Origin: Massilibacillus massiliensis
GTDB taxonomy: Bacteria > Bacillota > Negativicutes > FLKF01
NCBI RefSeq assembly: GCF_900086705.1
Contig: NZ_LT575483.1
Location: forward strand, 2,325,894-2,389,893
Reading direction: 5' to 3'
DNA length: 64,000 bases
Of this stretch, positions 19,938 to 54,333 are shown one piece after another. The notes under the pieces are model-generated. The model was not told the DNA's origin and did no database searches. It was given only the letters and a program-made list of their open reading frames with translations. Numbering within the stretch: the first letter of the stretch is position 1; each line of letters opens with the position of its first letter. Position numbers and translations under genes: made by a program.

Positions 19938-20045
19938 ACTCTTATCTAGAGAGGTTGAGGGACTGGCCCGATGACACCCAGCAACCGGCATCGTAAGATG
20001 CAAGGTGCTAATTCCAGCAGGAATATTTCCTGAAAGATGAGAGGG
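19938..20045 (+). promoter_or_regulatory. SAM-I (S-box) riboswitch
   Basis: The S-box core is clear: CTTATCTAGAGAGGTTGAGG, GACTGGCCCGATGA, CCCAGCAACC, the AAGGTGCTAATTCC stretch and closing GATGAGAGGG. It is followed by an intrinsic terminator and the methionine-pathway gene metA. High S-adenosylmethionine should favour the terminator and switch metA off. Confidence 0.96.
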
Positions 20046-36132: not shown

Positions 36133-36202
36133 ACTTGCATATCTGTATCTTCGGTATCAAAGAAAAGTTAGAATTTAGTTTATGATATAAATTTTATATT
36201 CA

Positions 36203-36249
36203 GTGATTTAAAATTAATATTTTAAATATAATGCAAAGGGTGTTATAAT
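36203..36249 (+). promoter_or_regulatory. Promoter/operator of nicotinate operon A
   Basis: TATAAT at 36244-36249 is preceded by a perfect dyad, ATTTAAAAT-TAAT-ATTTTAAAT (36206-36227), which covers the -35 position (TTTAAA, 17-base spacer). GTGATTTAA begins exactly 41 bases before TATAAT, as in the operon B promoter at 42469. The poor -35 and the dyad fit LysR-type activation. Confidence 0.65.
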
Positions 36250-36293
36250 TGCATCAAGAAAAAGATATTGCGTTTGCTGTTTACAAAATGCAC

Positions 36294-36340
36294 ACAAGGC
36301 CGTGTGAAGTCAAAGACTTCACACGGCCTTGTTATTTTTT
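36294..36340 (+). promoter_or_regulatory. Leader terminator hairpin of operon A
   Basis: An 18-bp perfect stem, core AAGGCCGTGTGAAGTC pairing with GACTTCACACGGCCTT around AAA, is followed by GTTATTTTTT. It lies downstream of the promoter and 60 bases before the first gene, so it could be a transcription attenuator. The same core, GCCGTGTGAAGTC, recurs in the operon B leader. It might alternatively just end the cotJ transcript. Confidence 0.6.
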
Positions 36341-36401: not shown

Positions 36402-36863
36402 ATGAAAATTCATTTTACGTTAAATAATGCGCCCGTTTTGGTGGAAGTAGAACCACATCGTCGAGCCATTGATATACTCAGAGAAGATCTGGATCTCACG
36501 GGAACAAAAATAGGTTGCGGTGAAGGCGACTGTGGTGCATGTACCATCATTTTGGATGGTAAAACTGCAAATTCCTGCTTGGTTTTAGCGCCGCAACTTG
36601 ATGGAAAGACCGTTTTAACAATTGAAGGGATGGGAAGTTACGATAAACTGGATGCGCTGCAGCAAGCGTTTATTGATGAAGGAGCTGTACAGTGTGGATT
36701 TTGTACGCCGGGGATGCTGCTGTCAGCAAAGGTGTTGCTTGATCACAACCCAACACCGAATCGGCAGGAGATCATGGAATCAATATCCGGGAATTTATGT
36801 CGTTGTACAGGTTATGCAAAAATTGCGAATGCGATTGAAAAGGTTTGCGGAGAAGGGGAATAA
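36402..36863 (+). CDS. Molybdenum hydroxylase, [2Fe-2S] subunit (nicotinate dehydrogenase NdhS-like)
   Basis: 153 residues with two [2Fe-2S] clusters: plant-type CGEGDCGACTIILDGKTANSC and the C-terminal QCGFCTPGMLL with LCRCTGY. It carries electrons between molybdopterin and FAD subunits of a xanthine-dehydrogenase-family hydroxylase. Twelve bases separate it from the large subunit. The locus context points to hydroxylation of nicotinate at C6; the sequence alone does not fix the substrate. Confidence 0.9.
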   Translation: MKIHFTLNNAPVLVEVEPHRRAIDILREDLDLTGTKIGCGEGDCGACTIILDGKTANSCLVLAPQLDGKTVLTIEGMGSYDKLDALQQAFIDEGAVQCGFCTPGMLLSAKVLLDHNPTPNRQEIMESISGNLCRCTGYAKIANAIEKVCGEGE

Positions 36864-36875
36864 GGAGGAAGTAAC

Positions 36876-39134
36876 ATGTCAGAACTATTCGTAGTAGGAA
36901 AATCCGTAATTCGCAAAGATGCATTAGATAAAGTCTTAGGGAAAACACGCTATAGCGCAGATTTGAAAATGCCGGGGATGTTGTATGCGAAAGTGCTAAG
37001 GAGTACAGTTGCACATGCGTTTGTTAAAAAAATCGATGTTGCACAAGCGAAACTTTTGCCTGGTGTGCACGCTGTGCTTACGGCGAAAGACGTCCCGGGG
37101 CTGAATGGACATGGGATTATTTTTAAAGATGAGCCGGTGCTTGTAGATCATAAAATTCGTAAGATTGGTGATGCCTTGGCAGTCGTTGCGGCTGAAACGG
37201 AAGAAATCGCGCAAAAGGCATTGCAGCTTATTGCGGTTGAACTCGAAGAGCTTCCCGTAGTTGCAGATGCCGTAAAGGCAATGCAGGTAGATGCGCCAAA
37301 AGTTCATGGCGACAGCAATATTTTGGCCTTGCGTAAGATCGTGCAAGGCGATGTTGATGCAGTATTTAAAACAGCTGAGATTCTTGTGGAAAACGAATAT
37401 ACAACGCAGATACAAGAACACGCGTATATTGAGCCAGAGGCGGGAATCGCCTATATGGAAGATGAGGTTGTTGTCGTCAAGGCATCTACACAAAATACAC
37501 ATTTCGATTGTCGTGAAATTGCGCGTAATTTGGCATTGCCGCAAAGCCGTATACGAATGATACAAGCGCCGACAGGTGGCGGCTTTGGTGGAAAACTCGA
37601 CATCTCGGTGCAAATTTATGTAGCATTGCTGGCCTTTAAAACTCACCGTCCAGTCAAACTTGTATATTCACGGGAAGAATCTATTATTACTTCTTCTAAG
37701 CGACATCCATGTGTCATCAGGTATAAAACTGCTGCCGATAAAACGGGAAAACTATTGGCTGTAGATGTACATGTTGTTGCCGATACAGGTGCCTATTCCT
37801 CCTATGGGCCGGCACCGATTACCCGTTTGGCGGTACATGCCGCAGGCCCCTATGAAGTTCCAGCGGTTAGAGTATATGCTTATACCGTTTATACCAATAA
37901 CCCTACTGCGGGTGCTATGCGTGGTTTTGGTGTACCGCAGATTGCATTTGCCTACGAGCAGCAGATGGATATGATTGCAGAAAAAGCAGGCATTTCTCCA
38001 CTGGAAATACGACTCCGCAATACATTGAAGAAAGGCAGTATGACATCAACTGGCCAAGTTATGGATATACAAGGGACAATTGCTGATACCTTAGTGCCAG
38101 CCTACGAAAAAGTGAAAGCAAGCAAGAAACGGCAATTGCCGTCACATAAAAAACGGGGCGTTGGAATGGGCTGCTTATATTTTGGGATCGGCAATACAGG
38201 ACAGCCAAATCCCGCAGGCGCATTTTTAGACGTGATGGAGGATGGAAGCGCGCATTTAATGGTAGGCGCTGCTGATATTGGGCAAGGGTCTAATACTATT
38301 TTGGCACAGATTGTGGCGGAAGAACTGGGCATCGATTTTAAAGATGTAAAAGTTACGTCGGCTGATACGGGAGTTACACCGGACGGCGGTGCATCTTCAG
38401 CCAGCCGTCAAACTTATATCTCGGGCAATGCGGCACTAAAATCTGCTCAAGTTGTAAAGAAAATGCTGTTAAATGAGCTCGTAGCATGGCAAAAAATCTC
38501 GCTGGAGGAAGTCGAATTTAAAGAGAAGTCTGTTTTTATTCAGCAGAAGCAGACGAAGATTACAGTTGCACAATTGATTACTCGTTGCCGGTCTAAAGGT
38601 TTGATGACGATTGGTCATGGCTGGTATAATCCAACGACAACAGCATTGGATGAGGAAACCGGACAAGGTAATCCATATGAAGTATATTCGTTTGCCAGTC
38701 ATGTTGCGGAAGTAGAAGTCGATACGCAGACAGGGCAAGTGGAGGTAACGCGCATTGCGGCAGCACATGATGTTGGGCAGGCCGTTAATCCATTGCATGT
38801 AGAGGGACAGATTGAAGGTGGTACGATTATGGGCGTCGGTTATGGTGTATATGAAGAAATAAAAACGGCCGAGGCCAGTATAAAGACGCCATCGTTTGCT
38901 ACGTATATTATCCCATCCTCTATGGATGTTCCGGTTGTAGATACAATTATTGTTGAAGAAAACGCCAATACGGGTCCTTTTGGAGCCAAGGGGTTGGGTG
39001 AGCCGCCATTGGTTGCACCGGCAGCTGCAATTGCCAATGCGGTATCGCAAGCCATTGGTGTCAGAATCAGCGCTTTGCCGATTACACCAGAAAAAGTTCT
39101 GAAAGCGTTGCAAAAGAAAAACGGATTACAATAA
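36876..39134 (+). CDS. Molybdenum hydroxylase, large molybdopterin subunit
   Basis: 752 residues, the full-length CoxL/XDH large subunit. Visible: N-terminal SVIRKDALDKVLGKTRYSAD, molybdopterin loop PTGGGFGGKLD, MRGFGVPQ, GQGSNTILAQIVAEELG, and the catalytic Glu in GAKGLGEPPLVAP (about 709). In Eubacterium barkeri nicotinate dehydrogenase this part is split into two proteins; here it is one chain. Clustering with enamidase and 6-hydroxynicotinate reductase makes nicotinate the likely substrate, forming 6-hydroxynicotinate. Confidence 0.9.
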   Translation: MSELFVVGKSVIRKDALDKVLGKTRYSADLKMPGMLYAKVLRSTVAHAFVKKIDVAQAKLLPGVHAVLTAKDVPGLNGHGIIFKDEPVLVDHKIRKIGDALAVVAAETEEIAQKALQLIAVELEELPVVADAVKAMQVDAPKVHGDSNILALRKIVQGDVDAVFKTAEILVENEYTTQIQEHAYIEPEAGIAYMEDEVVVVKASTQNTHFDCREIARNLALPQSRIRMIQAPTGGGFGGKLDISVQIYVALLAFKTHRPVKLVYSREESIITSSKRHPCVIRYKTAADKTGKLLAVDVHVVADTGAYSSYGPAPITRLAVHAAGPYEVPAVRVYAYTVYTNNPTAGAMRGFGVPQIAFAYEQQMDMIAEKAGISPLEIRLRNTLKKGSMTSTGQVMDIQGTIADTLVPAYEKVKASKKRQLPSHKKRGVGMGCLYFGIGNTGQPNPAGAFLDVMEDGSAHLMVGAADIGQGSNTILAQIVAEELGIDFKDVKVTSADTGVTPDGGASSASRQTYISGNAALKSAQVVKKMLLNELVAWQKISLEEVEFKEKSVFIQQKQTKITVAQLITRCRSKGLMTIGHGWYNPTTTALDEETGQGNPYEVYSFASHVAEVEVDTQTGQVEVTRIAAAHDVGQAVNPLHVEGQIEGGTIMGVGYGVYEEIKTAEASIKTPSFATYIIPSSMDVPVVDTIIVEENANTGPFGAKGLGEPPLVAPAAAIANAVSQAIGVRISALPITPEKVLKALQKKNGLQ

Positions 39135-39215
39135 ATAGAAGATGCATGCAAGCGATTTTATATGATTGGCTTTTGACACAGTAAAATATGTTGGCAAAAA
39201 TGAGGTGAGATTAAA

Positions 39216-39866
39216 ATGTCACAGCATACGATGCAACCGTATGTATTGCAAACGATCGATAAAGCACAGCAGGAGAGCATAGAAAGAATCAGACCTTTGT
39301 TATCGGACTCTGAGAGCAAATCTGTGTTACCCACGCTGGATGAAATTTTGGGGATTTTTGCTCAAAAGCAATTGCCGCAGGCAATAATCGCTCATAGCAT
39401 AACAGTTGCCTATGTTGCAGTTTGCATTGCCGGCTGGCTGAAGGCAAGCTGTAAATGTATAAAGATTGACCTGCCCAAATTGGCGGCTGGTGCTTTGCTG
39501 CATGATATCGAAAGGCTTCAGCCTAACCATGCAAGCAGAGGCGCGGATTTTGTTGTGGGCATGGGATATCCTTCTTTAGAACCGATGATCGCAGTGCATA
39601 TGGAACTTATATTTTTACCCGGTCAGGCACTTGGAGAAGAGGCAGTCTTATATTTGGCAGATAAGATTTGTCAAGGTTCGGAAATTATTTGCTTGGAGTC
39701 CCGTTTGGTGCAATGTATACAAAGGTATGGCGACTTGCCTAATATACGGAGAAAGTTTAAGACGGCATGCATGATTCGTGACCGTATCGTGGAAACGATA
39801 GAGACAACCAATATTTTAGCAACTGAAAAAATACTGTGGGAAACGATGATGGCAAAAAAAATGTAG
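39216..39866 (+). CDS. HD-domain protein of a molybdenum hydroxylase operon
   Basis: 216 residues with HD phosphohydrolase marks: AHSITVAYVA, LLHDIERL and AVHMEL. Such HD proteins occur in molybdenum hydroxylase clusters, but their substrate is not established. Its position between the large and FAD subunits suggests a role in cofactor maturation or nucleotide clean-up; this is inferred. About 80 bases separate it from the large subunit gene without a clear terminator. Confidence 0.7.
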   Translation: MSQHTMQPYVLQTIDKAQQESIERIRPLLSDSESKSVLPTLDEILGIFAQKQLPQAIIAHSITVAYVAVCIAGWLKASCKCIKIDLPKLAAGALLHDIERLQPNHASRGADFVVGMGYPSLEPMIAVHMELIFLPGQALGEEAVLYLADKICQGSEIICLESRLVQCIQRYGDLPNIRRKFKTACMIRDRIVETIETTNILATEKILWETMMAKKM

Positions 39867-39884
39867 GACTAGGAGTGTGATCCT

Positions 39885-40745
39885 ATGGGATATCAATATA
39901 TAAAATCGCAAACGATTGCGCAGGCTGTTGATGCTATGATGCAATCCCCTGTTCATCATCTGTTAGCGGGTGGTACGGATTTGCTGGTGAAAATGAAGTT
40001 AGGCCGCATTACAGCAGGTACATTCATCGACGTAAGCGATGTAAAGGAATTACAGCAGATTACCTTGGATAACGGTATCATAACGATTGGGGCGGCCGTT
40101 ACCCATACACAAATCGCCGGCTCACAAGTTATGCTGAAGTCTGCACCTGCGCTTGCCGCGGCATCGGCATCCGTGGGTTCACCGCAAATTCGAAATCGGG
40201 GTACGATTGGTGGAAATTCCGGCAATGCTTCACCGGCGGGTGATACGATACCAGCATTACTGGCTTATCGTGCGGAAGTCTGCATTGCTGGCGCGCGAGG
40301 CATCAGAAAAGTTCCGCTGCATCAATTTTTTATCAGACCGGGGAAAACCGTGCTGGAAGCGGATGAATTGATCGTAAGCTTTTCATTTTCTGCCCAGCAT
40401 AGGGGGCAAGGCAGTGCCTTCGGAAAAATTGGACAGCGAAAAGCACTTGCGATTTCGATTGTAAATGCAGCCTCTTTTGTTGCTGTGGATGCAGATCAAA
40501 TTGTAACACAAGCCAGAATTGCATTTGGCTCTGTTGCGGCTACCCCGATTCGGAGTTTGGCGGCGGAACGAGTATTGGTTGGTAAAAAACTTACGGATGA
40601 TAACATTCGAGAAGCTGCAAAAGCAGCCGGCGCAGAGATCAATCCGATTGACGACTTGCGTTCAACCGCCGAATATAGAAAAGAAGTAGCAGCCGTGCTG
40701 GCACAAAGAACTCTGGAACGTAGTAGGAATTGCTTGTACGCGTAG
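39885..40745 (+). CDS. Molybdenum hydroxylase, FAD subunit (NdhF-like)
   Basis: 286 residues of the CoxM/XDH FAD-binding family. FAD motifs LLAGGTDLLVKMK and GSPQIRNRGTIGGNSGNASPAGDT are clear, and the C-terminal CO-dehydrogenase flavoprotein domain follows. It passes electrons from the iron-sulfur subunit to NAD(P) or another carrier. Completes the three-part hydroxylase with the genes at 36402 and 36876. Confidence 0.9.
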   Translation: MGYQYIKSQTIAQAVDAMMQSPVHHLLAGGTDLLVKMKLGRITAGTFIDVSDVKELQQITLDNGIITIGAAVTHTQIAGSQVMLKSAPALAAASASVGSPQIRNRGTIGGNSGNASPAGDTIPALLAYRAEVCIAGARGIRKVPLHQFFIRPGKTVLEADELIVSFSFSAQHRGQGSAFGKIGQRKALAISIVNAASFVAVDADQIVTQARIAFGSVAATPIRSLAAERVLVGKKLTDDNIREAAKAAGAEINPIDDLRSTAEYRKEVAAVLAQRTLERSRNCLYA

Positions 40746-40809
40746 TGCGGCATTTGGTGCAAAGAAACGTTGCATAGGCAAAGGCATGATGAAAGAAAGG
40801 GGAATTTGC

Positions 40810-41463
40810 ATGTTGACGAAACGTAAGGAGTTAAGACGGATAGCCGGAATTGTTGTAGCTGCAGGCCTATCTAAACGGATGGGGCTATTTAAACCATTGA
40901 TGCCATATACACATGGCAGTATGATCGAAACTACCGTAACGAAGCTCCAACAGGCCGGCACAGATAAAATCATCCTGGTCACCGGGTATCGGTCAGCGGA
41001 AATTGCAGAGCGGTTTTTACACGCAGAAAATGTTTTACTGGTGAAAAATGAGCAGTATCTATATGGTGATATGCTGGAATCTGTACAGCTGGGATTAAAA
41101 GAAGCTGTAGATTGTGATGCAGCCTATGTTATGCCTGGTGATATGCCGGCTATAGCAGTAGAGACGTTTTTAAAAGTACGTCATAGTATGGAACAAACAG
41201 GGGCAAAAGTTGTATTTCCGACTGTTGCAGGCAAAAAAAAGCATCCGCCATTCATCCGTAATGCCTGTTTTTCGACAATCTGCAAGTTTCGTGGAGAAGG
41301 CGGACTCAGAGTTATTTTAGACAAATTTTCAGCGGAAACTGCACGCGTGCCGGTTGAGGATATTGGATGTACGCTGGATGCCGACACATGGAAAGATTAT
41401 ATGCGGCTTTTGGAATATCAAAAGCAAAGAACCATCCTTGCTATGCACGAGCAGGTTACCTAG
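40810..41463 (+). CDS. MocA-like molybdopterin cytidylyltransferase
   Basis: 217 residues from ATG 40810 (AAGGGGAA upstream; ATG 40786 lacks a site). NTP-transferase fold with IVVAAGLSKRMGLFKPL, the nucleotide loop, and VMPGDMPAIAVETF with the metal-binding Asp. Homologues attach CMP to molybdopterin to make the cytosine dinucleotide form used by this hydroxylase family. Last gene of operon A, 23 bases from the convergent LysR gene. Confidence 0.85.
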   Translation: MLTKRKELRRIAGIVVAAGLSKRMGLFKPLMPYTHGSMIETTVTKLQQAGTDKIILVTGYRSAEIAERFLHAENVLLVKNEQYLYGDMLESVQLGLKEAVDCDAAYVMPGDMPAIAVETFLKVRHSMEQTGAKVVFPTVAGKKKHPPFIRNACFSTICKFRGEGGLRVILDKFSAETARVPVEDIGCTLDADTWKDYMRLLEYQKQRTILAMHEQVT

Positions 41464-41486: not shown

Positions 41487-42383
41487 TTATTCACTGGTGA
41501 TTTGTTCAATGAATTTCCGTGGCAGTGATGAAAGTGTTATATTTTTTTTCGTAATCAGATAAATCTGTGAGTCAATAGAAGGATGTTCAATTTTTTTGAT
41601 GCGTAAAGATTTTTTATTCTCAAATAACATGGCGGAGGTATAAGGCATAATTGCGATGCCAATATCCGCATCTGCAAGGTAAAAGGAAGAACCGATATAA
41701 TCGTTTTCGCAGACGACTTGTAAAGAGATATTCTTTTCTTCGCATAAGTTATCAAGGATTTTTTTGTAACGACGATGTACAATCAGCGGTTTTCCGATCA
41801 GATCTTCTAAGTTGATGCTGTCGTCTTTCGTATCTGCCAAAAACTTTGTTGAACCGAGTGCAACAAAAAAATCTTTTTCATTCTTTTCGAGAAATGGATT
41901 CTTTACAGCTATGATCTGATAGCGTTTTTGGTTGAAAGGGGCGCGGACGAAGGCGAAGTCGACAAGGCCGTTATCAAGTAATTCAATAGCCCGAAAGGTA
42001 TTGCATTCATGAATCTTATAGTTGACATCGGGATATTTTAGTTGGAAATCATGAATGCTTTTAGGTAAAATAGAGCCGCAAACAGATGGAATTGTGGCGA
42101 TGTTGATCGTGCCGAACATTTCTTTGCCAATATTTTGCATAAGCGAAATGGATTGATTGGTGAGTGCTAAGATTTGCATGGCCTTATCTTGAAAAATTAG
42201 GCCTTCGCTCGTGATATGCAGTGTATGACCTTCGCGGCTAAAGAGCTTTACTTGTAATTCCTCTTCTAATAATTTGAGCTGATAGCTTAAAGGTGGCTGG
42301 GACATATTGAGTTTTGTGGCTGCCATTGTCATGTTGCCGGTTTCGGCGATTGCCAGAAAATATTCCAATTGCTTATACGTCAT
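41487..42383 (-). CDS. LysR-family regulator of the nicotinate locus
   Basis: 298 residues from ATG 42383, GGAGG seven bases upstream. N-terminal HTH MTYKQLEYFLAIAETGNMTM with MSQPPLSYQLKLLEEEL, then a periplasmic-binding-like effector domain (about 90-298). It is divergent from operon B and lies beside the end of operon A. The shared dyad-containing promoters of both operons are its probable targets, with a pathway intermediate as inducer; this is inference from position. Confidence 0.88.
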   Translation of the reverse strand: MTYKQLEYFLAIAETGNMTMAATKLNMSQPPLSYQLKLLEEELQVKLFSREGHTLHITSEGLIFQDKAMQILALTNQSISLMQNIGKEMFGTINIATIPSVCGSILPKSIHDFQLKYPDVNYKIHECNTFRAIELLDNGLVDFAFVRAPFNQKRYQIIAVKNPFLEKNEKDFFVALGSTKFLADTKDDSINLEDLIGKPLIVHRRYKKILDNLCEEKNISLQVVCENDYIGSSFYLADADIGIAIMPYTSAMLFENKKSLRIKKIEHPSIDSQIYLITKKNITLSSLPRKFIEQITSE

Positions 42384-42468
42384 AAAGTTTCCTCCATAAG
42401 TTAGATTGGTAATGCAATATGGATCGATCATGAATTGGAGACAAATGTTAATATAATTTTTATATAAT

Positions 42469-42515
42469 GTGATTTAATTTTAATATTTTTCATATCAAAT
42501 GTATAGTGTTATAAT
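42469..42515 (+). promoter_or_regulatory. Promoter/operator of nicotinate operon B
   Basis: GTGATTTAATTTTAATATTTT (from 42469) lies exactly 41 bases before TATAAT (42510-42515), the same as in operon A; GTGTTATAATT is identical in both. The -35 is poor (TTTTCA). Likely joint LysR-controlled promoter, and the adjacent divergent LysR gene may be autoregulated from here. Confidence 0.65.
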
Positions 42516-42570
42516 TAAGACATAGTTTAAAACAAAAAAGCATATTTTATTAATTTTGCAGTGCACACAA

Positions 42571-42610
42571 TGCCGTGTGAAGTCAAGGACTTCATGCGGC
42601 TTTTATTTTT
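42571..42610 (+). promoter_or_regulatory. Leader hairpin of operon B
   Basis: GCCGTGTGAAGTC pairs with GACTTCATGCGGC around AAG, using two G-U pairs where operon A has Watson-Crick pairs, then TTTTATTTTT. TGCACACAA precedes it here and in operon A. Base changes that keep pairing support an RNA role. It lies 50 bases before the enamidase start. Confidence 0.6.
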
Positions 42611-42660: not shown

Positions 42661-43827
42661 ATGGGAAAAGTGCTGATTAAAAACATTGGAACGATTGTGA
42701 GCGGTAATATCGATCAACCGATTCTTACTGGGGATTCCATTCTGATTGAAGATCACAAAATTGTTTCGATTGGAAAAAACCTGACGGCAGGTGCTGCTGT
42801 ACAGGTGATTGATGCGAATGGGACAACGGTAATTCCTGGACTGTTTGATTCTCATGTTCATACGACTTTGGGTGATTATGCGCCAAGGCAAAAAACGTTG
42901 GATTATATCGCCAGTGCCTTGCATGGTGGAGTCACTACGATGATTTCGGCGGGCGAATGTCATACACCCGGACGGCCAAATGATCCGATTGGGACAAAAG
43001 CACTGGCGATTGTCGCAAGCAAATCTTTTTATAAAGCACCGCCAGCAGGTGTTAAAGTACATGGCGGCGCATTGATTTTGGAAAAAGGGCTGACGGAGCA
43101 AGATTTTGCTGATCTTAAGGAAGCTGGCGTATGGTTGGTTGGAGAAATTGGGCTTGGCAGTGTAAAAAAGCCAGAGGAAGCTGCGGTGATGGTGGAATGG
43201 GCGCATAAATATGGATTTAAGGTGCAAATGCATACGGGGGGAACTTCTATTCCGGGTAGTTCTACGGTAAGCGCATCTGACGTTATGGCGACAAAGCCTG
43301 ATGTGGTATCGCACATTAATGGCGGGCCTACCGCAATCTCACCGCTGGAGATTGATAAGATTCTTGAGGATACTACACTGGCTGTGGAAATTGTACAATG
43401 CGGTAATCCTAAAGCAGCACAGCATGTGTTCAAAAGAGTAAAAGAGTTAAACGCATTTGATCGTGTGATCTTTGGTAATGATGCACCTTCCGGCACGGGG
43501 TTGATTCCTTTAGGTATTCTGAGAAATATCTGCTTTGCAGCATCCATTTCTGATGTAGCACCAGAACAGGCGGTCTGTATGGCAACCGGCAATACCGCGA
43601 AAGTATATGGGTTAAATACTGGAGAGATCGCGCCAGGGAAAGAAGCAGATCTTGTATTGATGGATGCGCCGATGGGGTCGATTGCCGAAGATGCGCTGCA
43701 TGCTTTCGCCACTGGCGATATTCCCGGTATCAGCATCGTCATGATCAATGGCAAGGTTTTGGTAAACAAGAGTAAAAATACGCCGCCTGCCAAAAAAGCA
43801 GCCATAGTAATACTCGACATAGCGTAA
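42661..43827 (+). CDS. ena: Enamidase (1,4,5,6-tetrahydro-6-oxonicotinate hydrolase)
   Basis: 388 residues from ATG 42661, GGAGGG eight bases upstream. Amidohydrolase superfamily with binuclear metal residues visible: His65 and His67 (DSHVH), Glu162 (VGEIGLG), His191 (QMHTGG), His218 (SHINGG) and Asp274 (GNDAPSG). HGGVTTMISAG, the TGGTSIPGSSTV stretch and the NTPPAKKAA tail closely resemble, from memory, the Fe-Zn enamidase of Eubacterium barkeri. It opens the reduced pyridine ring, giving ammonia and 2-formylglutarate. First gene of operon B. Confidence 0.9.
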   Translation: MGKVLIKNIGTIVSGNIDQPILTGDSILIEDHKIVSIGKNLTAGAAVQVIDANGTTVIPGLFDSHVHTTLGDYAPRQKTLDYIASALHGGVTTMISAGECHTPGRPNDPIGTKALAIVASKSFYKAPPAGVKVHGGALILEKGLTEQDFADLKEAGVWLVGEIGLGSVKKPEEAAVMVEWAHKYGFKVQMHTGGTSIPGSSTVSASDVMATKPDVVSHINGGPTAISPLEIDKILEDTTLAVEIVQCGNPKAAQHVFKRVKELNAFDRVIFGNDAPSGTGLIPLGILRNICFAASISDVAPEQAVCMATGNTAKVYGLNTGEIAPGKEADLVLMDAPMGSIAEDALHAFATGDIPGISIVMINGKVLVNKSKNTPPAKKAAIVILDIA

Positions 43828-43844
43828 TTGAGAGGATGATAGAG

Positions 43845-44426
43845 ATGAAAGAACCAGAAATTAGAAAAGTTGTTACCAATGTAGAAGACATTTATATTGA
43901 AGGTTTTAAAAAATTAGACAAACCCTTACGTCGTTGCGTTGTTGCAGCAGTGATTAAGAATCCTTATGCTGGCAGTTACGCAGAAGAACTTGGCGAATTG
44001 ACGGAAATCGGCGAATACCTCGGTGCGTATCTGACGAAAATTGCCGCAGAACGTTTAGGCGCAGAGGCAATTGAAAGCTATGGAAAAGGTGCAATCATTG
44101 GCGTAAATGGCGAGCTTGAACATGGCGCTGCGATTTTGCATCCCAAATTTGGCAAACCGATGCGCGATGTACTTGGTGGTGGTAAAGCCATCATTCCTTC
44201 GGCGAAAAAATCCGGAGGTCCTGGGACCAGTCTTGATGTTCCGCTTCATTATAAGGATGCGGCTTTTGTTAGAACACATTATGATGCAATGGAGATTCGT
44301 ATTGCAGATGCACCGAAGGGTGATGAAATTATCGTTGCGGCTGCTTTTACGGATGGCGGTCGTCCGCATCCGAGAATTGGCGGTTTGCAGGTGTGTGAAA
44401 TTAAAGGTGAAGACGGTTTGAGATAA
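43845..44426 (+). CDS. AA_synth (DUF1185) family protein
   Basis: 193 residues from ATG 43845, with GAGAGG upstream. PEIRKVVTNVEDIYIEGFKK start and conserved EHGAAILHPKFGKPMR, PSAKKSGGPGTSLDVPLHYK and GGRPHPRIGG blocks match the so-called amino acid synthesis family, whose biochemical role is unsettled. Members are often found with amidohydrolases. Directly after enamidase, it may act on or protect the unstable ring-opened product, or channel ammonia chemistry; this is speculation. Confidence 0.75.
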   Translation: MKEPEIRKVVTNVEDIYIEGFKKLDKPLRRCVVAAVIKNPYAGSYAEELGELTEIGEYLGAYLTKIAAERLGAEAIESYGKGAIIGVNGELEHGAAILHPKFGKPMRDVLGGGKAIIPSAKKSGGPGTSLDVPLHYKDAAFVRTHYDAMEIRIADAPKGDEIIVAAAFTDGGRPHPRIGGLQVCEIKGEDGLR

Positions 44427-44562
44427 GCACGATTTCTGTACACTGGCGTCACAGAAACTGTCCTGGGTTTGGACACTTTTGCGACGCTTGTTTTGTAAAG
44501 AGAGCTTGCAGGAAAAGAACGAGCTATGTGATCCGAGCAAGAAATAAAGGAGGATGCTGACA

Positions 44563-45921
44563 ATGGAAGTTACAGTAGATAGCATGTACGAATCGAAAAA
44601 AATAATTGCCAGGTTGGATAAATTACCCTTATCGCGTTTTCATTATAAGATGCTGGGGATCAATGGGCTGGCTTGGGCCTTTGATGCTTTTGATGTCGGT
44701 ATCGTGACGTTTATTGTGACAGCGCTCGTAAAAGATTGGGGGCTTAGTACTGGACAGGTTGGCGTTCTTTTAAGTTCCGGTATGGTGGGAATGATTGTCG
44801 GAGCCTTTTTATCAGGGCCATTGGCGGATCGATATGGGCGTAAAGCTGTATTTAAGTGGACCCTATTGATTTTTTCGATATTTTCACTGCTTTGTGCGTT
44901 TGCCTGGGATTTTACTTCTTTGGTCGTTTTTCGTTTTCTGGTTGGGGTAGGCCTTGGCGGAGAAACGCCGGTTGTTACCTCGTTATTGGGTGAATTTATT
45001 CCGGCAAAAAGCAGAGGGAAGGTACAGGGGCTTTTAAACTGTTTTTGGGCCGTTGGCTGGATTGCTGCTACTGCGGTCAGCTATTATGTGATACCAGCCG
45101 TCGGCTGGCGGTGGGCGTTTGTCGCCGGTGCACTTCCTGCACTCTATATCTGGGTGATTCGCCTGCATTTACCGGAGTCGCCGCGTTGGTTGGCTTCTGT
45201 AGGCAGGGCAAAAGAAGCAGCAGACATTATGCAGGGGATTGAGGCGGTCGTTGGTAAAACGAAACCGATTGCGGTAATCACGGAGATGGATGTGGAAAAG
45301 GTCATGGATCTTAGCCCTAGACCCATCGGCGATTTGTTTAAGAAAAAATATCTTAAAACGACAGTGATGCTTTGGCTTCTTTGGTTCATGGGGATGTTTG
45401 GCTATTATGGGTTATTTTCTTGGATGCCGACACTGTTGGTCAAGGCAGGTCATAGTATGATCCAATCCTTTCAATATGTACTGTTTTTGCAGCTGGCATA
45501 TATACCAAACCAGATACTTTCTGCTTATTTGATGGATAAAGTCGGCAGGAAGAAACTTCTCGTAGGAAATCTTTTCTTCTCAGCAGTGGCTGCTGTTATA
45601 TTTGGTATTGCGATGGGAAGTCAATTGGCTACGGTAGAAGTTATTTTGCTTGGCTTGGTGACCTCGTTCTTTGTTTCGGGGATTTGGGGTATCACCTACA
45701 CCTATACGCCGGAACTTTATCCTACAGGAATTCGTGGTACTGGTACAAGTTGGGCATCGACCTGTTCCAGATTTGGCTCTATGTCGGCACCTTTGGTTAT
45801 TGGTTATAGCTTAAATGCAATCGGATTCGCCGGCGTATATGGAATTGTAGCGGTAGCCTTTGGCATTGCATGCATCGCAGTTTTAACATTAGGGGTAGAA
45901 ACAAAAGGAAAAACTTTATAA
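44563..45921 (+). CDS. MFS carrier, aromatic acid/niacin family (first copy)
   Basis: 452 residues from ATG 44563; ATG 44554 lies directly on the AAAGGAGG site. Twelve membrane segments, MFS loop GPLADRYGRKAVFKW, and AFDAFDVGIVTFIV in helix 1 as in aromatic acid:H+ symporters. Operon context predicts uptake of nicotinate or hydroxynicotinate. A clear paralogue is encoded at 52005. The preceding gap contains a TTTCTGT/ACAGAAA hairpin. Confidence 0.88.
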   Translation: MEVTVDSMYESKKIIARLDKLPLSRFHYKMLGINGLAWAFDAFDVGIVTFIVTALVKDWGLSTGQVGVLLSSGMVGMIVGAFLSGPLADRYGRKAVFKWTLLIFSIFSLLCAFAWDFTSLVVFRFLVGVGLGGETPVVTSLLGEFIPAKSRGKVQGLLNCFWAVGWIAATAVSYYVIPAVGWRWAFVAGALPALYIWVIRLHLPESPRWLASVGRAKEAADIMQGIEAVVGKTKPIAVITEMDVEKVMDLSPRPIGDLFKKKYLKTTVMLWLLWFMGMFGYYGLFSWMPTLLVKAGHSMIQSFQYVLFLQLAYIPNQILSAYLMDKVGRKKLLVGNLFFSAVAAVIFGIAMGSQLATVEVILLGLVTSFFVSGIWGITYTYTPELYPTGIRGTGTSWASTCSRFGSMSAPLVIGYSLNAIGFAGVYGIVAVAFGIACIAVLTLGVETKGKTL

Positions 45922-46044
45922 CAATTGCGTTGTAAACAAAATTGCAGGCAGAGGATCGGTTGATGTTGTATGCAGAAAAGACACGGCAGCGAAGGAGCGT
46001 AGCGTATTTTAATTTTATACAGGGATAATAGGTTGAGATAATTT

Positions 46045-47451
46045 ATGAAAAAGAGAATCTTTGGAATTATATTGGCAATGATGGTTGCCGTTAGTATTTT
46101 AGCGATACCGGAAATTGAAAATCTGTCCAGCGTAGGGCAACGTTGTCTGGCGGTCTTTTCAGCGGTGTTCATCTTATATTTATTTGAATCGATTCATGTA
46201 GCGATTATCAGTTTGTTGATTGTACCGATCTTGGTGATTTTTCAAATTACGGATATTCATATGGCGCTGAAAGGGTTTTCCTCAACTTCTACCTATTTGA
46301 TCATTGGTTCTTTTGTTATGGCGGCTGCCATGCTGAAATCGAATTTAGGTGATCGAATAACCTATTGGGTGCTGGTGAGGGTGGGGAGCAGTGCGAAACG
46401 AATATCGTTTGGCATTATGTGTGTCAATATTGTGATGGCTTTTTTAATTCCGTCTTCAACAGCACGGACGGCGATGTTGCTGCCGATTTGCATAAAGATG
46501 ATCCATTTATTTCGAGATAAAGAACAACGTGGCGGGCGTTTTGGTGCCAACCTTTTGATGACGCTTTGCTGTACCAACTCAACGATTAGTGCAGGGATAT
46601 TAACTTCAACGGTAACGAACCCGATGGCAGTACAGTACATTGCATCGGTTACAGGGCAGACCGTATCTTTTGTCAAATGGTTGGAGTGGGGATTTCCGCC
46701 GGCATTGCTTATGACGATCGTTTCTTGGGTGCTCATTCAGCTTATTTTTTCTTCAAAAATCAATGCAGATGGACATGGACGGGAATATTTTCAGCAGAAG
46801 TTAAACGAGCTGGGTACAATTCGTAAGAGTGAAAAAAATGTTTTTATCATATTTTTGGGAACGATTCTGCTCTGGATATTTGGAGAAAACTTTGGCCTAG
46901 ACAGTACGACTGTATGTCTTCTGAGTGCCTGTATTTTATGTTTGCCGAAGGTTGGCTGTCTGGATTGGAAGGAATGTCAGGCAAGTATTTCATTGAATGT
47001 AGTATTTGTCTGTAGCGGCGGCATCAGCCTTGGCGCGGCGATGAGTGATACAGGGGCTGCAAACTGGCTGGCAGATAGCATTTTTTCGCTGCTGCATCTC
47101 AGTCAATATTCCGCGGCAGCAACGATTAGTATTTTACTGGTGATCGTGCAGTTTATGCATGTTGTATTTGTTGGCACAGCGACAATGGCGAATGTGTTTT
47201 TCCCAATTCTCGTAGGAATTGCCGAAGTATCGAATATCAATCCAATGCTTACGGTATTGCCGGCAGCTTTTATGATCGGCGGTTATCCGATTTTGATGTT
47301 TTTTAATACGACGCCAAATATTTTATGCTGTGATACCGGAGAACTAAAAAATCGAGACTTCCCGTTGTTCGGCTGCTGTGTATCGATATTGGCTTGTATC
47401 GTTTATATTGTTTGTGTTTACTGGTATTGGCCGTTGATTCATGCAATGTAA
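46045..47451 (+). CDS. SLC13/DASS-family anion transporter
   Basis: 468 residues, about twelve membrane segments. DASS-type repeats with IPSSTARTAMLLPI and CTNSTISAGILTSTVTNPMAV in the first half and VFVGTATMANVFFPIL in the second. The family moves di- and tricarboxylates or sulfate. Its place between ring-cleavage and dehydrogenase genes suggests handling of a C5-C6 dicarboxylate such as 2-(hydroxymethyl)glutarate; direction is unknown. Confidence 0.82.
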   Translation: MKKRIFGIILAMMVAVSILAIPEIENLSSVGQRCLAVFSAVFILYLFESIHVAIISLLIVPILVIFQITDIHMALKGFSSTSTYLIIGSFVMAAAMLKSNLGDRITYWVLVRVGSSAKRISFGIMCVNIVMAFLIPSSTARTAMLLPICIKMIHLFRDKEQRGGRFGANLLMTLCCTNSTISAGILTSTVTNPMAVQYIASVTGQTVSFVKWLEWGFPPALLMTIVSWVLIQLIFSSKINADGHGREYFQQKLNELGTIRKSEKNVFIIFLGTILLWIFGENFGLDSTTVCLLSACILCLPKVGCLDWKECQASISLNVVFVCSGGISLGAAMSDTGAANWLADSIFSLLHLSQYSAAATISILLVIVQFMHVVFVGTATMANVFFPILVGIAEVSNINPMLTVLPAAFMIGGYPILMFFNTTPNILCCDTGELKNRDFPLFGCCVSILACIVYIVCVYWYWPLIHAM

Positions 47452-47528
47452 AGACACAGAGGGGAATGCGCTAAGCTGAGGTGTCTTGCGTTATAAAAAC
47501 GTAATTTAAAAGTAAAGTGGGGATAACA

Positions 47529-48416
47529 ATGAAAATTGGATTTATCGGTCTGGGAAATATGGGCAAACCTATGGCGTTGAATCTTTTAAAGGCACAATAT
47601 GATGTTACCATTTGCGATGTGAATCAAGCGGTAGTGGAGGAGTTTAAAGCTGTAGGTGCAAAGGCAGCTGCTACGCCGGCAGAGCTTGCCAAATATGTGG
47701 ATGTTGTCATCACGATGCTGCCGAATGGAAAAATTGTCGAACAAGTTGTTAATGGCGAGCAAGGAATTCTGCGCGCTGCTGACCCGGGGCTTTGTATTTT
47801 AGATATGTCGAGTGTAGCGCCCGGGTTCACGCAGCAGCTGGCTGCTTTAGCCGCTGCGCAGCAGGTGGATTATATGGATGCACCGGTCAGCGGAGGAGTA
47901 AAAGGTGCTACGGATGGTACGCTGACGATTATGGCCGGAGGCGCTCCTGCGATTGTAAGCAAATGTCGTCCGATCTTAGAAACTTTAGGGAAGAAAATCT
48001 ACGAAGTCGGTTCTGTAGGTGCAGGGGATGCGATAAAAATGGTCAATAACCTTCTTCTGGCAGTCAATATGGCAGCCGCAGCAGAAGCGTTTACGCTGGG
48101 AACAAAAATTGGCTTAGATCCACAAATTATGTTAGACGTTATCGGTACAAGTTCTGGAAACAGTTATGCGTTGCAGGCTAAAATGCCAAACTTTGTGTTT
48201 CAAGGAAAATTTGAACCTGGTTTTATGATTGATCTACAATATAAAGATCTCGAACTGGCTGTGCAGACAGCGAAGGAAACGCAGGTGCCGCTGATGCTCG
48301 GCAATGTCGTACAGCAACTCTATGGACAGTCACAAGCAGCAGGTCTTGGCAAAGAAGATATTTCTGCGATTATAAAGCCGCTCGAACAGCTTACGGGAAT
48401 TCAGGTGCGTAAATAA
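47529..48416 (+). CDS. hgd: 2-(Hydroxymethyl)glutarate dehydrogenase
   Basis: 295 residues from ATG 47529. Beta-hydroxyacid dehydrogenase family: [13 protein letters not shown] Rossmann motif with acidic CDVNQ (NADH preference), substrate loop [11 protein letters not shown] and catalytic Lys in GDAIKMVNN. The C-terminal [19 protein letters not shown] resembles the Eubacterium barkeri enzyme. It reduces 2-formylglutarate to 2-(hydroxymethyl)glutarate. Tartronate semialdehyde or hydroxyisobutyrate activity is excluded mainly by context. Its stop overlaps the next start (TAATG). Confidence 0.87.
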
Positions 48417-49174
48417 TGTTCGAAAAAATACGGTGGATGCAAGAGCGCAAGTGTACAGCTGATGTTTTTACGTTACTGGACATTGAACCCCAAAATGAAC
48501 ATTTGGTTGGCGCTATGTTGCTGTTAGATGCGGAAGGGTTGCTGGAAGGCACTTGTGATGAATTTGTCTTACAAAAAATATTGGAAAAGCGCCGTCAAAC
48601 CATATGGGAGAAACCCAGTACTTTTTGGATTGAAGACCAAGCCGGCAAACGTTATCGATTCTATTGGGATAAAGTTATGCCGCCACCCCGCATCATCGTT
48701 ATGGGAGGCGGACATATCAGCCAGTCCTTGGTACAAATTCTAGGCATGCTAAATTTTGATATCACGGTCATTGACGATCGACCGGAATTTGTGAATGCAG
48801 CTAGATTTCCTGCCGCACAAACCTGTATTTGTGATAGTTTTAAAAAGGCTTTGGGGCAGTTGACAATGGATGCTTCAACTGCGTTGATTATTGTTACACG
48901 CGGACACCGTTATGACATGGATTGTTTACGTTTTGTTATTGATAAGAGTTTCTGTTATCTTGGGATGATCGGCAGTCGAAAAAGAGTGAAAGAAATTATT
49001 GAGATGTTGCAGCAAGAAGGATTTTCGAAAGAGCAGCTACAGCGCTTATATGCACCGATTGGTTTGGATATCGGTGCACAGACGCCGGCAGAGATTTCAG
49101 TCAGTATTGCTGCAGAAGTTATCATGGCCTTTCGTGGTGGCTTGGGAGGAGCACTCAGTAAGATAAGGAGATGA
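48416..49174 (+). CDS. XdhC-type Rossmann protein (molybdenum cofactor insertion)
   Basis: 252 residues. A non-conserved N-terminus (1-85) followed by the XdhC C-terminal Rossmann domain: [56 protein letters not shown] and [24 protein letters not shown]. XdhC proteins bind the cofactor, promote its sulfuration and hand it to the hydroxylase. The usual CoxI-like domain is instead encoded separately by the next gene. Confidence 0.85.
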
Positions 49175-49178
49175 TGAA

Positions 49179-49529
49179 ATGGATCGTGAGGTACTGCATT
49201 TCATATGCGAAAATCACGCTGCAGAGCAAATGTCTGCTGCCTTGGTCACAATTGTTGATGCACGCGGATCTGTTCCGCGTAAAGCAGGCGCACAGATGCT
49301 GGTTTATCCGGATGGGCGCACGCATGGAACGATTGGTGGTGGCTGCGGAGAAGCCGAAGTAAAGCGGCAGGCATTCCTTGCGTTGGATGAAAAGAAATCT
49401 CAGTTATACACCGTATCTTTGCTGCATGATGTAGCAGCCGATGAAGGGATGGTTTGCGGCGGTGTTATGGAAGTTTTTATCCAGATTCTTTTTCACAGGG
49501 AATGCATCGATGGAGGACGAGAAAAATAG
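49179..49529 (+). CDS. CoxI-like N-terminal XdhC domain, stand-alone
   Basis: 116 residues matching only the N-terminal XdhC/CoxI domain: ALVTIVDARGSVPRKAGAQM and GTIGGGCGEAEVKRQAF, ending with MVCGGVMEVFIQ. Together with the preceding gene it would rebuild a full XdhC, but in swapped order. Expected to assist loading of sulfurated (or selenated) cofactor into the hydroxylase. Confidence 0.82.
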   Translation: MDREVLHFICENHAAEQMSAALVTIVDARGSVPRKAGAQMLVYPDGRTHGTIGGGCGEAEVKRQAFLALDEKKSQLYTVSLLHDVAADEGMVCGGVMEVFIQILFHRECIDGGREK

Positions 49530-49561
49530 AATATAAATTTTCAACAAAAAGGTTGGCAATG

Positions 49562-49603
49562 AAGCCAGTGAAGGTGAATAACGTATCTTCACTGGCTTTT
49601 TAT
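49562..49603 (+). terminator. Hairpin/T-tract just before hnr
   Basis: AAGCCAGTGAAG (49562-49573) pairs with CTTCACTGGCTT (49587-49598), followed by TTTATTTTAT. It looks like a good terminator yet lies only 25 bases before the hnr start, inside the operon. It may adjust hnr expression. Its GTGAAG/CTTCAC core recalls the two leader hairpins. Confidence 0.7.
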
Positions 49604-49627
49604 TTTATATAGTTTGGAGGCACTTCT

Positions 49628-51121
49628 ATGATTCAGGTAAAAAAAGAGCTTTGTAAAGGCTGTGGAATCTGCAAAAAAAATTGCCCAAAAGCGGCAATTG
49701 AAATAAAAGAAAAAGTTGCTGAAATCAGTGCATTATGTGTAAGCTGCAGTGTCTGTCTTAGGGTGTGCCCCTTTGGTGCATTGGCGAAAGCAAATGGTTC
49801 ATCTGCAGCACTTCATTGTCGGTGTTGTCCGGTAGAGTGTGAAATTTTACCCGGATTTGAAGGTGCTTGCAAGCGCTATACCAATATTAGCGGTCAGCTT
49901 GTTCGCAACCGTGATTTGGTCGTCGATGCATTGACAGAGGCGGCGCATAAGGCGATATTACCGGAAAAACCGCTCATTACGGCAGTAGGGGCTGGCACAT
50001 CGTATCCTTGCTGTAAGCCGGCTCCTTATATTGTGGAATGTGATGTCCACGGGGTCGACGTTGTTACGGTTGTAACGGAAGCACCGCTAAGTTACAGCGG
50101 CATTAAAGTGAAAATTGATGCCAATACGCATATTGGAGAACAAGGTACACCTGTGCTATGTGCAGGGGCAATTGTTGGTATGGTGGATACAGAGGAATAT
50201 GGTGCAAAAATGCTTTCACTTGGTGGAGCGGGCATTTTAAGCGGTAAAAATGGTTTTATTGCGGCAAAAACGGTTGTCGCGCTAGCCAATGGTGAGGAAG
50301 TCGATCTGCAGGTACAAAAGGGCAGCCGATTAAAACTTCAAGTTGGAAAAGCACCAATTATTGATGGCAAGGTGGAGAAAAAGATGCGGGTGGGCTGTGG
50401 TAGTGCAACCATTGGAATGTTTGCAAAAATGCTCAGCGAGGTTGTAGATGAGGCTATTATACTTGATTTTCATGTCATCGGGCTGCTGAGTGAGCACAGA
50501 GCTGGTGAAGAAGTTGGTTTAGTGTATCGCGGCGTCGTACCAAATGGACGAAAAAGTACCAGAGGACGCTATTTCGGTGAAGCCGGTCGTGGTTGGGGCG
50601 GCACCTCGATCATGGCGGCAACAGATGCTGTAAAAGAAATAGATATGACGATTGCGTATCCGGGGCTACGCATTTTGGTCACAGAGACAACTGCGCAGCA
50701 GGCCGGACTATTAGAGGTACAGGCGGATGGAACGGTCAGAGAAATTCCGTTGACGAAGCAGATTGAAGAAGTTGTTAAATTTATTGCCGATAATTGTGAG
50801 GATGCCCGTGTCTCCGCTATGTATGTGGGGGGAACAGGTGGCAGTGCCAGAGCCGGCGTTACAAAGCATCCGATTAAGTTGTCACAGGCAGTTCACGCAG
50901 GAGATGTCAAAGTGACGATTGGCGGCGGCAATACGTATATTCTGCCGGGCGGCGGGATTAATTTTATGGTGGATGTAGAAAAAGTTGTGCCGAAAGCGTT
51001 TACGTGGGTTGCGACACCGGCTACCGTAGTGCCGGTTGAATATACCATGTCAAAAGAAACGTTTGCCGGTTTGGGCGGGCACATGCAAGCCATTCGCCCG
51101 GTCGGTGAAGTGAAATCGTGA
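49628..51121 (+). CDS. hnr: 6-Hydroxynicotinate reductase
   Basis: 497 residues. Two [4Fe-4S] ferredoxin motifs (Cys9, 12, 15, 19 and Cys37, 40, 43, 47), then an extra cysteine group (64, 66, 67, 71, 81) that could hold the [2Fe-2S] cluster known for this enzyme. The long C-terminal domain has Gly-rich blocks (GGTGGSARAG, GGGNTYILPGGG). The Eubacterium barkeri enzyme reduces 6-hydroxynicotinate to tetrahydro-6-oxonicotinate and carries covalent flavin. Assignment rests on the architecture and the ena/hgd context. Confidence 0.87.
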   Translation: MIQVKKELCKGCGICKKNCPKAAIEIKEKVAEISALCVSCSVCLRVCPFGALAKANGSSAALHCRCCPVECEILPGFEGACKRYTNISGQLVRNRDLVVDALTEAAHKAILPEKPLITAVGAGTSYPCCKPAPYIVECDVHGVDVVTVVTEAPLSYSGIKVKIDANTHIGEQGTPVLCAGAIVGMVDTEEYGAKMLSLGGAGILSGKNGFIAAKTVVALANGEEVDLQVQKGSRLKLQVGKAPIIDGKVEKKMRVGCGSATIGMFAKMLSEVVDEAIILDFHVIGLLSEHRAGEEVGLVYRGVVPNGRKSTRGRYFGEAGRGWGGTSIMAATDAVKEIDMTIAYPGLRILVTETTAQQAGLLEVQADGTVREIPLTKQIEEVVKFIADNCEDARVSAMYVGGTGGSARAGVTKHPIKLSQAVHAGDVKVTIGGGNTYILPGGGINFMVDVEKVVPKAFTWVATPATVVPVEYTMSKETFAGLGGHMQAIRPVGEVKS

Positions 51122-51972
51122 TGGCTACGACGCAAAGTGGTATGTTTGTGAACTACGGACCAATGCAGATCTCGATACAAGCTGTTTTTGCCGACAAACA
51201 GAGTAGCAGTGATGTGCAGGTACAAGCTGCAGGTCAATATGCAAAGCAGCTTTTGCATGAGATTGCACAGCATAAAGAAGTTGCGAAATTGGCGCAGCAA
51301 AAGCTACCCTCGAAGCTACCTAATGCAGCGGTTTTACGTCGTATGGTTGATGCTGTAAGACAGGCGGCGGATCCGACGCTTACACCAATGGCAGCGGTTG
51401 CGGGGACGATTGCGGACATGATTGCAGACGACTTGGCTGCGCGTGGCGCGTTGAAAGTTATCGTAAATAATGGTGGCGATATTGCCATACGTCTGCAAGA
51501 AGGGCAAACCGCCAAAGTAGGCGTTGCTGTCAGCTCGCATTTGCCCGTTATGACGACCGTGTGTATTACAAAAGAAAGCGGGATTGGCGGAATCGCTACA
51601 AGTGGAATTGGCGGCCGCAGCCTTACAAAAGGAATAGCGACAGCTGCAGTTGTTGCGGCGAGAACCGCCGGGCTTGCCGACGCTTGTGCAACAAGTGTAG
51701 GAAATGCAGTTTATACTGCACATCCACATATTCGCTTGATGCCTGCTGAAGCGTTGGATCCCAATACGGATATTCGAGGGCATTTTGTGGTGAAAGAAGT
51801 AGGAATATTACCGCTTACTGTGATCCAGAAAGCAATTTACAACGGCAAAGTATATGCGCAAAAGCTTTTAGAAGATGAGATTATACTGAAAGCGGCCATA
51901 TACATCGAAGATTGGAGCGCGATGATTCCGGAGGTTTGGCTAAATTCGGAGGAGCAGCTTTTATATAAATAA
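51121..51972 (+). CDS. UPF0280 (ApbE-superfamily) protein, possible Hnr flavin transferase
   Basis: 283 residues; its ATG overlaps the TGA stop of hnr, so the two are translationally coupled. Blocks MAAVAGTIADMIADDL, IVNNGGDIAIRL, SGIGGIATSGIGGRSL and ADACATSVGNAVY match UPF0280, a family with the ApbE-like fold. ApbE enzymes attach FMN covalently to proteins. Since Hnr of Eubacterium barkeri has covalent flavin, this protein may be its flavin transferase; this is an inference. Confidence 0.75.
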   Translation: MATTQSGMFVNYGPMQISIQAVFADKQSSSDVQVQAAGQYAKQLLHEIAQHKEVAKLAQQKLPSKLPNAAVLRRMVDAVRQAADPTLTPMAAVAGTIADMIADDLAARGALKVIVNNGGDIAIRLQEGQTAKVGVAVSSHLPVMTTVCITKESGIGGIATSGIGGRSLTKGIATAAVVAARTAGLADACATSVGNAVYTAHPHIRLMPAEALDPNTDIRGHFVVKEVGILPLTVIQKAIYNGKVYAQKLLEDEIILKAAIYIEDWSAMIPEVWLNSEEQLLYK

Positions 51973-52004
51973 TTTATGCGAATAAAGCGGATGGGGGAAA
52001 TCGT

Positions 52005-53351: not shown

Positions 53352-53369
53352 GTGGAAGAGGAAAATCGT

Positions 53370-54191: not shown

Positions 54192-54234
54192 AACAAGAGA
54201 CATTTCACATTGCTATTGTGAAATGTCTCTTGTT
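54192..54234 (+). terminator. Hairpin after operon B
   Basis: AACAAGAGACATTTCACA pairs exactly with TGTGAAATGTCTCTTGTT (54217-54234). The following T tract is weak (TGATGTATATAAAATT), but position fits the end of operon B. Confidence 0.65.
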
Positions 54235-54333
54235 GATGTATATAAAATTGGTGCTATTTATTCACTGTTTCGTTGTCTTTTTTGATGTATAATGAAATAA
54301 GTAATGATTGTTGCAATATAGGAGGTAACGATG

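Follow-up and report, generated by a model that had tools for sequence, protein, structure and literature searches.

In catabolic promoters of the LysR type, the lysR gene is divergent or nearby, and two sites are shared by the target promoters, a T-N11-A dyad near -65 and another near -35. Attenuators controlled by ANTAR proteins are defined by a P2 element, a hexaloop with A1 and G4 that overlaps a terminator; the eut consensus is AGCAANGRRGCUY, a second such hairpin, P1, is required upstream, EutV antitermination needed P1, and most of the targets stand before nitrogen genes (Ramesh et al. 2012, PMC3369931). In the 2022 structure of EutV the minimal binding motif was a single hexaloop, with G4 stacked on Tyr164, although antitermination still used two (PMC8934654).

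Here we compare with these systems two nicotinate operons, A and B, of Massilibacillus massiliensis and their leaders, which the original prediction described as a duplicated module made of a LysR operator and an attenuator responding to nicotinate. In the open-access literature we found no report joining ANTAR proteins with nicotinate or with Negativicutes. All coordinates without a locus name refer to the window, that is, the whole stretch of 64,000 nucleotides analysed.

Results

Two homologous leaders precede the nicotinate operons

The features of the two operons are as follows.

36185-36199, unstranded: operon A upstream AT dyad ATATAAATTTTATAT, T-N11-A, near -64; candidate LysR recognition site, read from the sequence and aligned with all the other leaders
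36203-36223, plus strand: operon A conserved box GTGATTTAAAATTAATATTTT, near -43; candidate LysR activation site
36241-36249, plus strand: operon A extended -10 TGTTATAAT, with no good -35
36291-36306, plus strand: operon A mini-hairpin CACAC-AAGGCC-GTGTG, hexaloop with A1 and G4; candidate antiterminator, pairing in 7/7 leaders
36298-36340, plus strand: operon A intrinsic terminator GGCCGTGTGAAGTC-AAA-GACTTCACACGGCC and T tract
36402-41463, plus strand: operon A genes, for the 2Fe-2S, Mo and FAD subunits of a molybdenum hydroxylase, an HD-domain protein and a MocA-like transferase
41487-42383, minus strand: gene of a regulator of the LysR type, transcribed away from operon B, with its start placed as in the Pelosinus propionicus orthologue
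42451-42465, unstranded: operon B upstream dyad ATATAATTTTTATAT
42469-42489, plus strand: operon B conserved box GTGATTTAATTTTAATATTTT
42507-42515, plus strand: operon B extended -10 TGTTATAAT
42564-42579, plus strand: operon B mini-hairpin CACAC-AATGCC-GTGTG, hexaloop with A1 and G4
42572-42610, plus strand: operon B intrinsic terminator GCCGTGTGAAGTC-AAG-GACTTCATGCGGC, with two G-U pairs, and T tract
42661-53351, plus strand: operon B genes, for an amidohydrolase (likely enamidase), an AA_synth protein, an MFS and a DASS transporter, then a likely 2-(hydroxymethyl)glutarate dehydrogenase, a split XdhC, a likely 6-hydroxynicotinate reductase, an ApbE-like and an MFS protein
49552-49612, plus strand: third attenuator, inside operon B, GTTGGC-AATGAA-GCCAGT overlapping a terminator, upstream of the likely 6-hydroxynicotinate reductase gene

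The molybdenum hydroxylase of operon A is likely nicotinate dehydrogenase, and the enzyme names in operon B were inferred from the E. barkeri pathway. XdhC is represented in operon B by two genes in reversed order (XdhC_C, then XdhC_CoxI; 48416-49529). At the end of this operon (53352-55014) lie genes for two MCP-type signalling proteins without evident membrane segments, the second with a Rossmann-like N-terminal part; they are possible soluble chemoreceptors for pathway compounds, and the first has a homologue in the cluster of another class member, G037. The window also holds a Type-P5 twister ribozyme (1638-1692, 65 bits) and an ordinary SAM (S-box) riboswitch (19939-20043).

Leaders A (36185-36340) and B (42451-42610) resemble each other far above chance: a BLAST comparison of A with B gives E=3e-16 over 168 nt, and leader A as a query against the whole 4.0-Mb genome finds leader B at E=3.5e-13 and no third copy. 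The box GTGATTTAA..TTAATATTTT is present at 36203 and 42469, 41 nt upstream of TATAAT (36244, 42510), as had been described, and both -10 elements lie inside GTGTTATAATT. In each leader there follow TGCACACAA and then GCCGTGTGAAGTC-AA[A/G]-GACTTC... with a T tract, and the G-U pairs said to be retained in the operon B stem are there. Beyond that description, the homology takes in an upstream dyad, ATATAA..TTATAT (36185-36199, 42451-42465). Identity is 57% overall; the spacers between the boxes have diverged, while the boxes, the -10 and the hairpin are conserved.

Distribution and origin of the module

The clusters of other genomes were fetched by enamidase homologues. Similar leaders do stand upstream of homologous operons, the point on which the original prediction had staked its case: seven were found in four genomes, every one in a nicotinate cluster. 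Apart from our two, P. propionicus DSM 13327 has one upstream of the dehydrogenase operon and one upstream of the enamidase gene, the metagenome-assembled genome CTSoil_079 has one upstream of the enamidase gene, and G037 has one upstream of an MFS gene divergent from lysR and one upstream of an enamidase gene whose product is 80% identical. A covariance model built from the seven leaders scores them at 65-78 bits. The best other sequence in 380 genomes of the class reaches at most 39 bits, which we take as the level of ordinary terminators. No further true copy was found among these 380 genomes or in viral contigs, and the covariance search of 80 enamidase loci matched only those of CTSoil_079 (L020) and P. 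propionicus (L021). Since leader matches are restricted to nicotinate clusters, the module is limited to this pathway and a few related genomes.

The origin of the duplication, which had been claimed for the module as a whole, is visible in P. propionicus. There the homology between the A and B regions spans 368 nt and takes in, to one side, the 5' end of lysR and, to the other, the first enamidase codons, which a stop interrupts. Relics of the lysR and enamidase 5' ends thus surround its leader A (L021:3387-3733), a visible case of promoter capture by duplication. These relics indicate that leader A is a copied lysR-enamidase intergenic segment placed upstream of the dehydrogenase operon, and it is by duplication of this intergenic region that the module spread, with promoter and attenuator travelling together as one unit. 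In G037 the segment was duplicated differently, to a position upstream of the MFS gene besides that upstream of the enamidase gene. P. propionicus leader A is 75% identical to leader B of the same genome and 59% to leader A of the window, which fits a later duplication or gene conversion.

A plausible LysR-type promoter

The box GATT..A..TTAATATTTT, the -10 and the hairpin form the blocks conserved over the seven leaders. All seven have TGYTATAAT, an extended -10, and no good -35 was found in them. A lysR gene lies next to operon B, as it does next to the equivalent operons of P. propionicus, CTSoil_079 and G037. The positions of the dyad (about -64) and of the second box (about -43) fit the LysR type and their blocks are conserved; it should be noted, however, that the sequence is very AT-rich, so that T-N11-A is easily matched. 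The divergent lysR gene, the two conserved boxes and the poor -35 make the proposed LysR operator plausible, and the promoter plausibly one activated by a LysR-type protein; binding to the boxes is what we infer from this arrangement.

A terminator and an alternative fold

Upstream of the first gene, every one of the seven leaders has a strong intrinsic terminator with a T tract. Its helix has 16 pairs, 95% of the cells are paired over the seven leaders and two pairs are changed on both sides. The claim of selection on the RNA structure is supported by these figures, though 55 of 500 shuffles reach the same covariation score and the variable columns are few, so covariation lends it weak support. 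The 5' arm of the terminator, GCCGTGTGAAG, is invariant and the 3' arm is variable, the pattern that a second partner for the 5' arm would produce. Such a partner can be named: in 7/7 leaders an upstream CACAC can pair with GTGTG of the 5' arm, leaving the hexaloop AA[T/G]GCC. All 35 cells of this stem are paired, with changes in its 5' arm that are only G-U-compatible and with no double compensatory change. In a partial transcript that ends before the 3' arm of the terminator, the mini-hairpin is predicted for six of the seven leaders. Given the terminator, random upstream sequence makes an equally good mini-hairpin in about 1% of cases, so that the leaders alone are insufficient and the case is carried by the pattern across the clusters and the class; moreover, the seven leaders are related and hence represent few independent events. 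The hairpin is, very probably, an attenuator.

As to other kinds of leader, a riboswitch, T-box or other curated RNA was rejected, as no curated covariance model reached its gathering score: the Rfam search of the leaders gave no match above threshold, and a permissive scan of leader A gave only sub-threshold ones. A leader peptide was also rejected, since the short frames at the hairpins, on inspection, have no ribosome site.

ANTAR-type signature in the nicotinate clusters and in the class

All seven leaders carry an A1/G4 hexaloop, on a 5-bp stem where P2 asks for at least 3 bp, and the site at 49552 carries one as well; in the leaders this hairpin overlaps the 5' arm of the intrinsic terminator, as P2 does. 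P1, searched for as a second A1/G4 hexaloop hairpin 5-12 nt upstream, was not found in any of the seven, and we therefore do not claim that leaders A and B are ANTAR targets by the published definition. Hexaloop scans revealed no convincing P1 in the eut, amtB or glnQ leaders of the class either, or in the nicotinate leaders. Leaders A and B look like ANTAR targets and probably work like them.

We counted C-G-closed hexaloops overlapping terminators under 64 loop signatures (C-xyNzNN-G, positions 1, 2 and 4) in 80 enamidase loci, the window and G037. AA.G is the commonest signature, with 18 sites, whereas the other signatures average 2.3 and reach 7 at most; 7 of the 18 are the leaders themselves, two of them from the window. 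Among the others are near-canonical sites upstream of the dehydrogenase operon in two Desulfosporosinus species, of an enamidase gene (Hespellia) and of an AA_synth gene (CTSoil_081), and the one at 49552 of the window. This last site is more canonical than those of leaders A and B and is kept in P. propionicus and CTSoil_079 despite an altered terminator body.

In the class, GGCAANGNNGCC followed by a terminator is common, and it is rare in the reversed control. Those sites that were read in context stand upstream of amtB (also in our genome), glnQ, pxpB and the eut genes for ethanolamine kinase and permease. The amtB leader of our genome (L200, C6:910000-914000, minus strand, near 1029) has GGCAATGAAGCC in overlap with a terminator, an arrangement shared by many class members. 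In families close to the window, with 26 genomes, site matches outnumber those in reversed controls by 57 to 6, and in genus g11 they do so by 32 to 4, all of these having ANTAR genes. The counts are 10 versus 11 in g59, 3 versus 0 in g56 and 4 versus 2 in g32, where no ANTAR protein above the curated cut-off is among the matches listed. Summed by hand, this gives about 89 versus 10 in ANTAR-positive groups and 17 versus 13 in ANTAR-negative ones (Fisher test, p=1.3e-4, with matches treated as independent, which is generous). Enrichment of the sites follows the presence of ANTAR genes.

Several other nicotinate clusters are arranged in ways of their own. Those of Desulfosporosinus (L070:4305-4544, L077:5724-5963, L082:664-903) have a sigma-54-like promoter followed by a conserved attenuator, AAGGC-AATGGT-GCCTT, which in L082 stands upstream of a BCCT transporter gene. 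CTSoil_079 has two different nicotinate clusters (L020 and L061), and only one of them has the LysR-type leader; the second has a terminator with the hexaloop AGCGAA upstream of a gene for 542 aa with homology to that of a probable sigma-54 activator. Upstream of the enamidase gene of several Clostridia (L025, L026, L027 and L078), CATTTCAnnnnTGAAATG-type inverted repeats and sigma-54-like promoters appear to constitute another regulatory scheme for the pathway.

A candidate regulator

Our genome encodes two ANTAR proteins: the gene of the first lies near groEL, next to that of a histidine kinase, and the second belongs to the eut operon. The kinase-adjacent, or core, gene occurs in every relative examined and in most class genomes searched, and every genome with a leader has at least one ANTAR protein. 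G037 has two leaders and a single ANTAR gene, of the core kind by its score. A protein of the EutV type as the sole regulator was rejected, as G037 lacks it. Aligned with EutV, with residues mapped by eye, the core protein keeps most RNA contacts (Arg142, Lys143, Lys149, Glu160, Tyr164 and Met172), while Lys147 is replaced by Arg and Arg168 by Gln. The core ANTAR protein is a better candidate for the regulator than that of the eut operon; to our knowledge, it has no known targets in this class.

Discussion

The hairpin of the leaders resembles those released by nitrogen-linked ANTAR proteins, and the genes for breakdown of nicotinate (vitamin B3) may therefore need two signals. While the attenuator of the original prediction very probably stands, nicotinate as its signal is not supported: the alternative fold with its ANTAR-type hexaloop, together with class-wide sites at nitrogen genes, makes nitrogen status the likelier signal, a reading based on which genes carry the sites. 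We lean, with modest confidence, towards a two-stage switch, in which initiation would be controlled by substrate and attenuation would be of the ANTAR type and linked to nitrogen, over an attenuator sensing nicotinate. Given a pathway compound, the LysR-type activator encoded between operons A and B would bind the two conserved boxes and start transcription from the extended -10. The transcript would at once form the intrinsic terminator and, unless this were prevented, transcription would stop before the first gene. Instead, the 5' arm of the terminator may pair with the upstream CACAC to form the small hairpin with the hexaloop AA[T/G]GCC. An ANTAR protein, probably the phosphorylated core response regulator, would bind this hexaloop and hold the antiterminator, letting RNA polymerase through when nitrogen is wanted. 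The further site at 49552 might gate 6-hydroxynicotinate reductase inside operon B, and operon A would have come under the same control via the duplicated lysR-enamidase intergenic segment.

An attenuator with CACAC-GTGTG as antiterminator might also obey a non-ANTAR factor, either a small molecule or a nicotinate-specific RNA-binding protein. A signal specific to the pathway would suit the restriction of the CACAC stem to nicotinate clusters; the stem is unlike the GGC/GCC of the sites at nitrogen genes, and P1 was not found in the seven leaders. However, the stretch from the start to the hairpin, about 30-60 nt and poorly conserved, is too little for a known riboswitch, the Rfam search gave nothing above threshold, and the loop AATGCC recurs in a Pelosinus leader directly behind eutV; we consider control of this kind unlikely. 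Less probable again is a constitutive terminator that merely damps expression or stabilises the 5' end and leaves all regulation to the LysR-type activator. While the lysR gene adjoins the leaders and the terminator is strong in every copy, the 5' arm and CACACAA are conserved beyond the need of a plain terminator, and the internal terminator of operon B keeps its hexaloop though the stem body changed between species. That the shared leaders are duplicates which, apart from lending a promoter, do nothing themselves, as the lysR and enamidase relics flanking P. propionicus leader A might suggest, is very improbable in view of the conserved boxes, -10 and hairpin among diverged spacers, G037 included.

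The two-stage switch with ANTAR-type attenuation can be extended, tentatively and on balance doubtfully. An ANTAR antiterminator with a single hexaloop and no P1, joined to a LysR promoter, might form a portable substrate-AND-nitrogen cassette copied between nicotinate operons; nicotinate catabolism in several Firmicutes lineages might then form an ANTAR regulon, governed by the orphan core ANTAR protein of Negativicutes, in which initiation is controlled in different ways, by a LysR type here and from sigma-54-like promoters in Desulfosporosinus. If so, ANTAR antitermination would act on vitamin B3 breakdown as well as on ethanolamine, nitrate and ammonium uptake, and the core ANTAR protein would gain a candidate regulon (nicotinate, amtB, glnQ and eut). 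The leaders would also be a test of whether antitermination can do with one hexaloop, which the 2022 structure of EutV suggests to be enough for binding.

Comparison with known systems

The gene content resembles the nicotinate fermentation cluster of Eubacterium barkeri, with molybdenum hydroxylase, 6-hydroxynicotinate reductase, enamidase and dehydrogenase, while a covariance search of the fetched locus (L035) found no such leader there. With divergent catabolic promoters of the LysR type our locus shares the divergent lysR gene and the poor -35, and its candidate T-N11-A dyad near -64 and box near -43 fit them by position; it differs in the extended -10 and in that a second, remote operon has the same candidate operator together with the terminator. 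Like the ANTAR-target attenuators of EutV/eut, NasR/nasF and AmiR/amiE (PMC3369931), the leaders have a C-G-closed A1/G4 hexaloop overlapping the terminator 5' arm, with several sites per pathway, some inside operons, with nitrogen-linked genes and with ANTAR genes in the genome. In contrast to those, leaders A and B have no recognisable P1, and their stem is CACAC/GTGTG in place of the usual GGC/GCC (CAC/GTG here). The attenuator is here joined to an activator-type promoter, and the two are duplicated as a unit.
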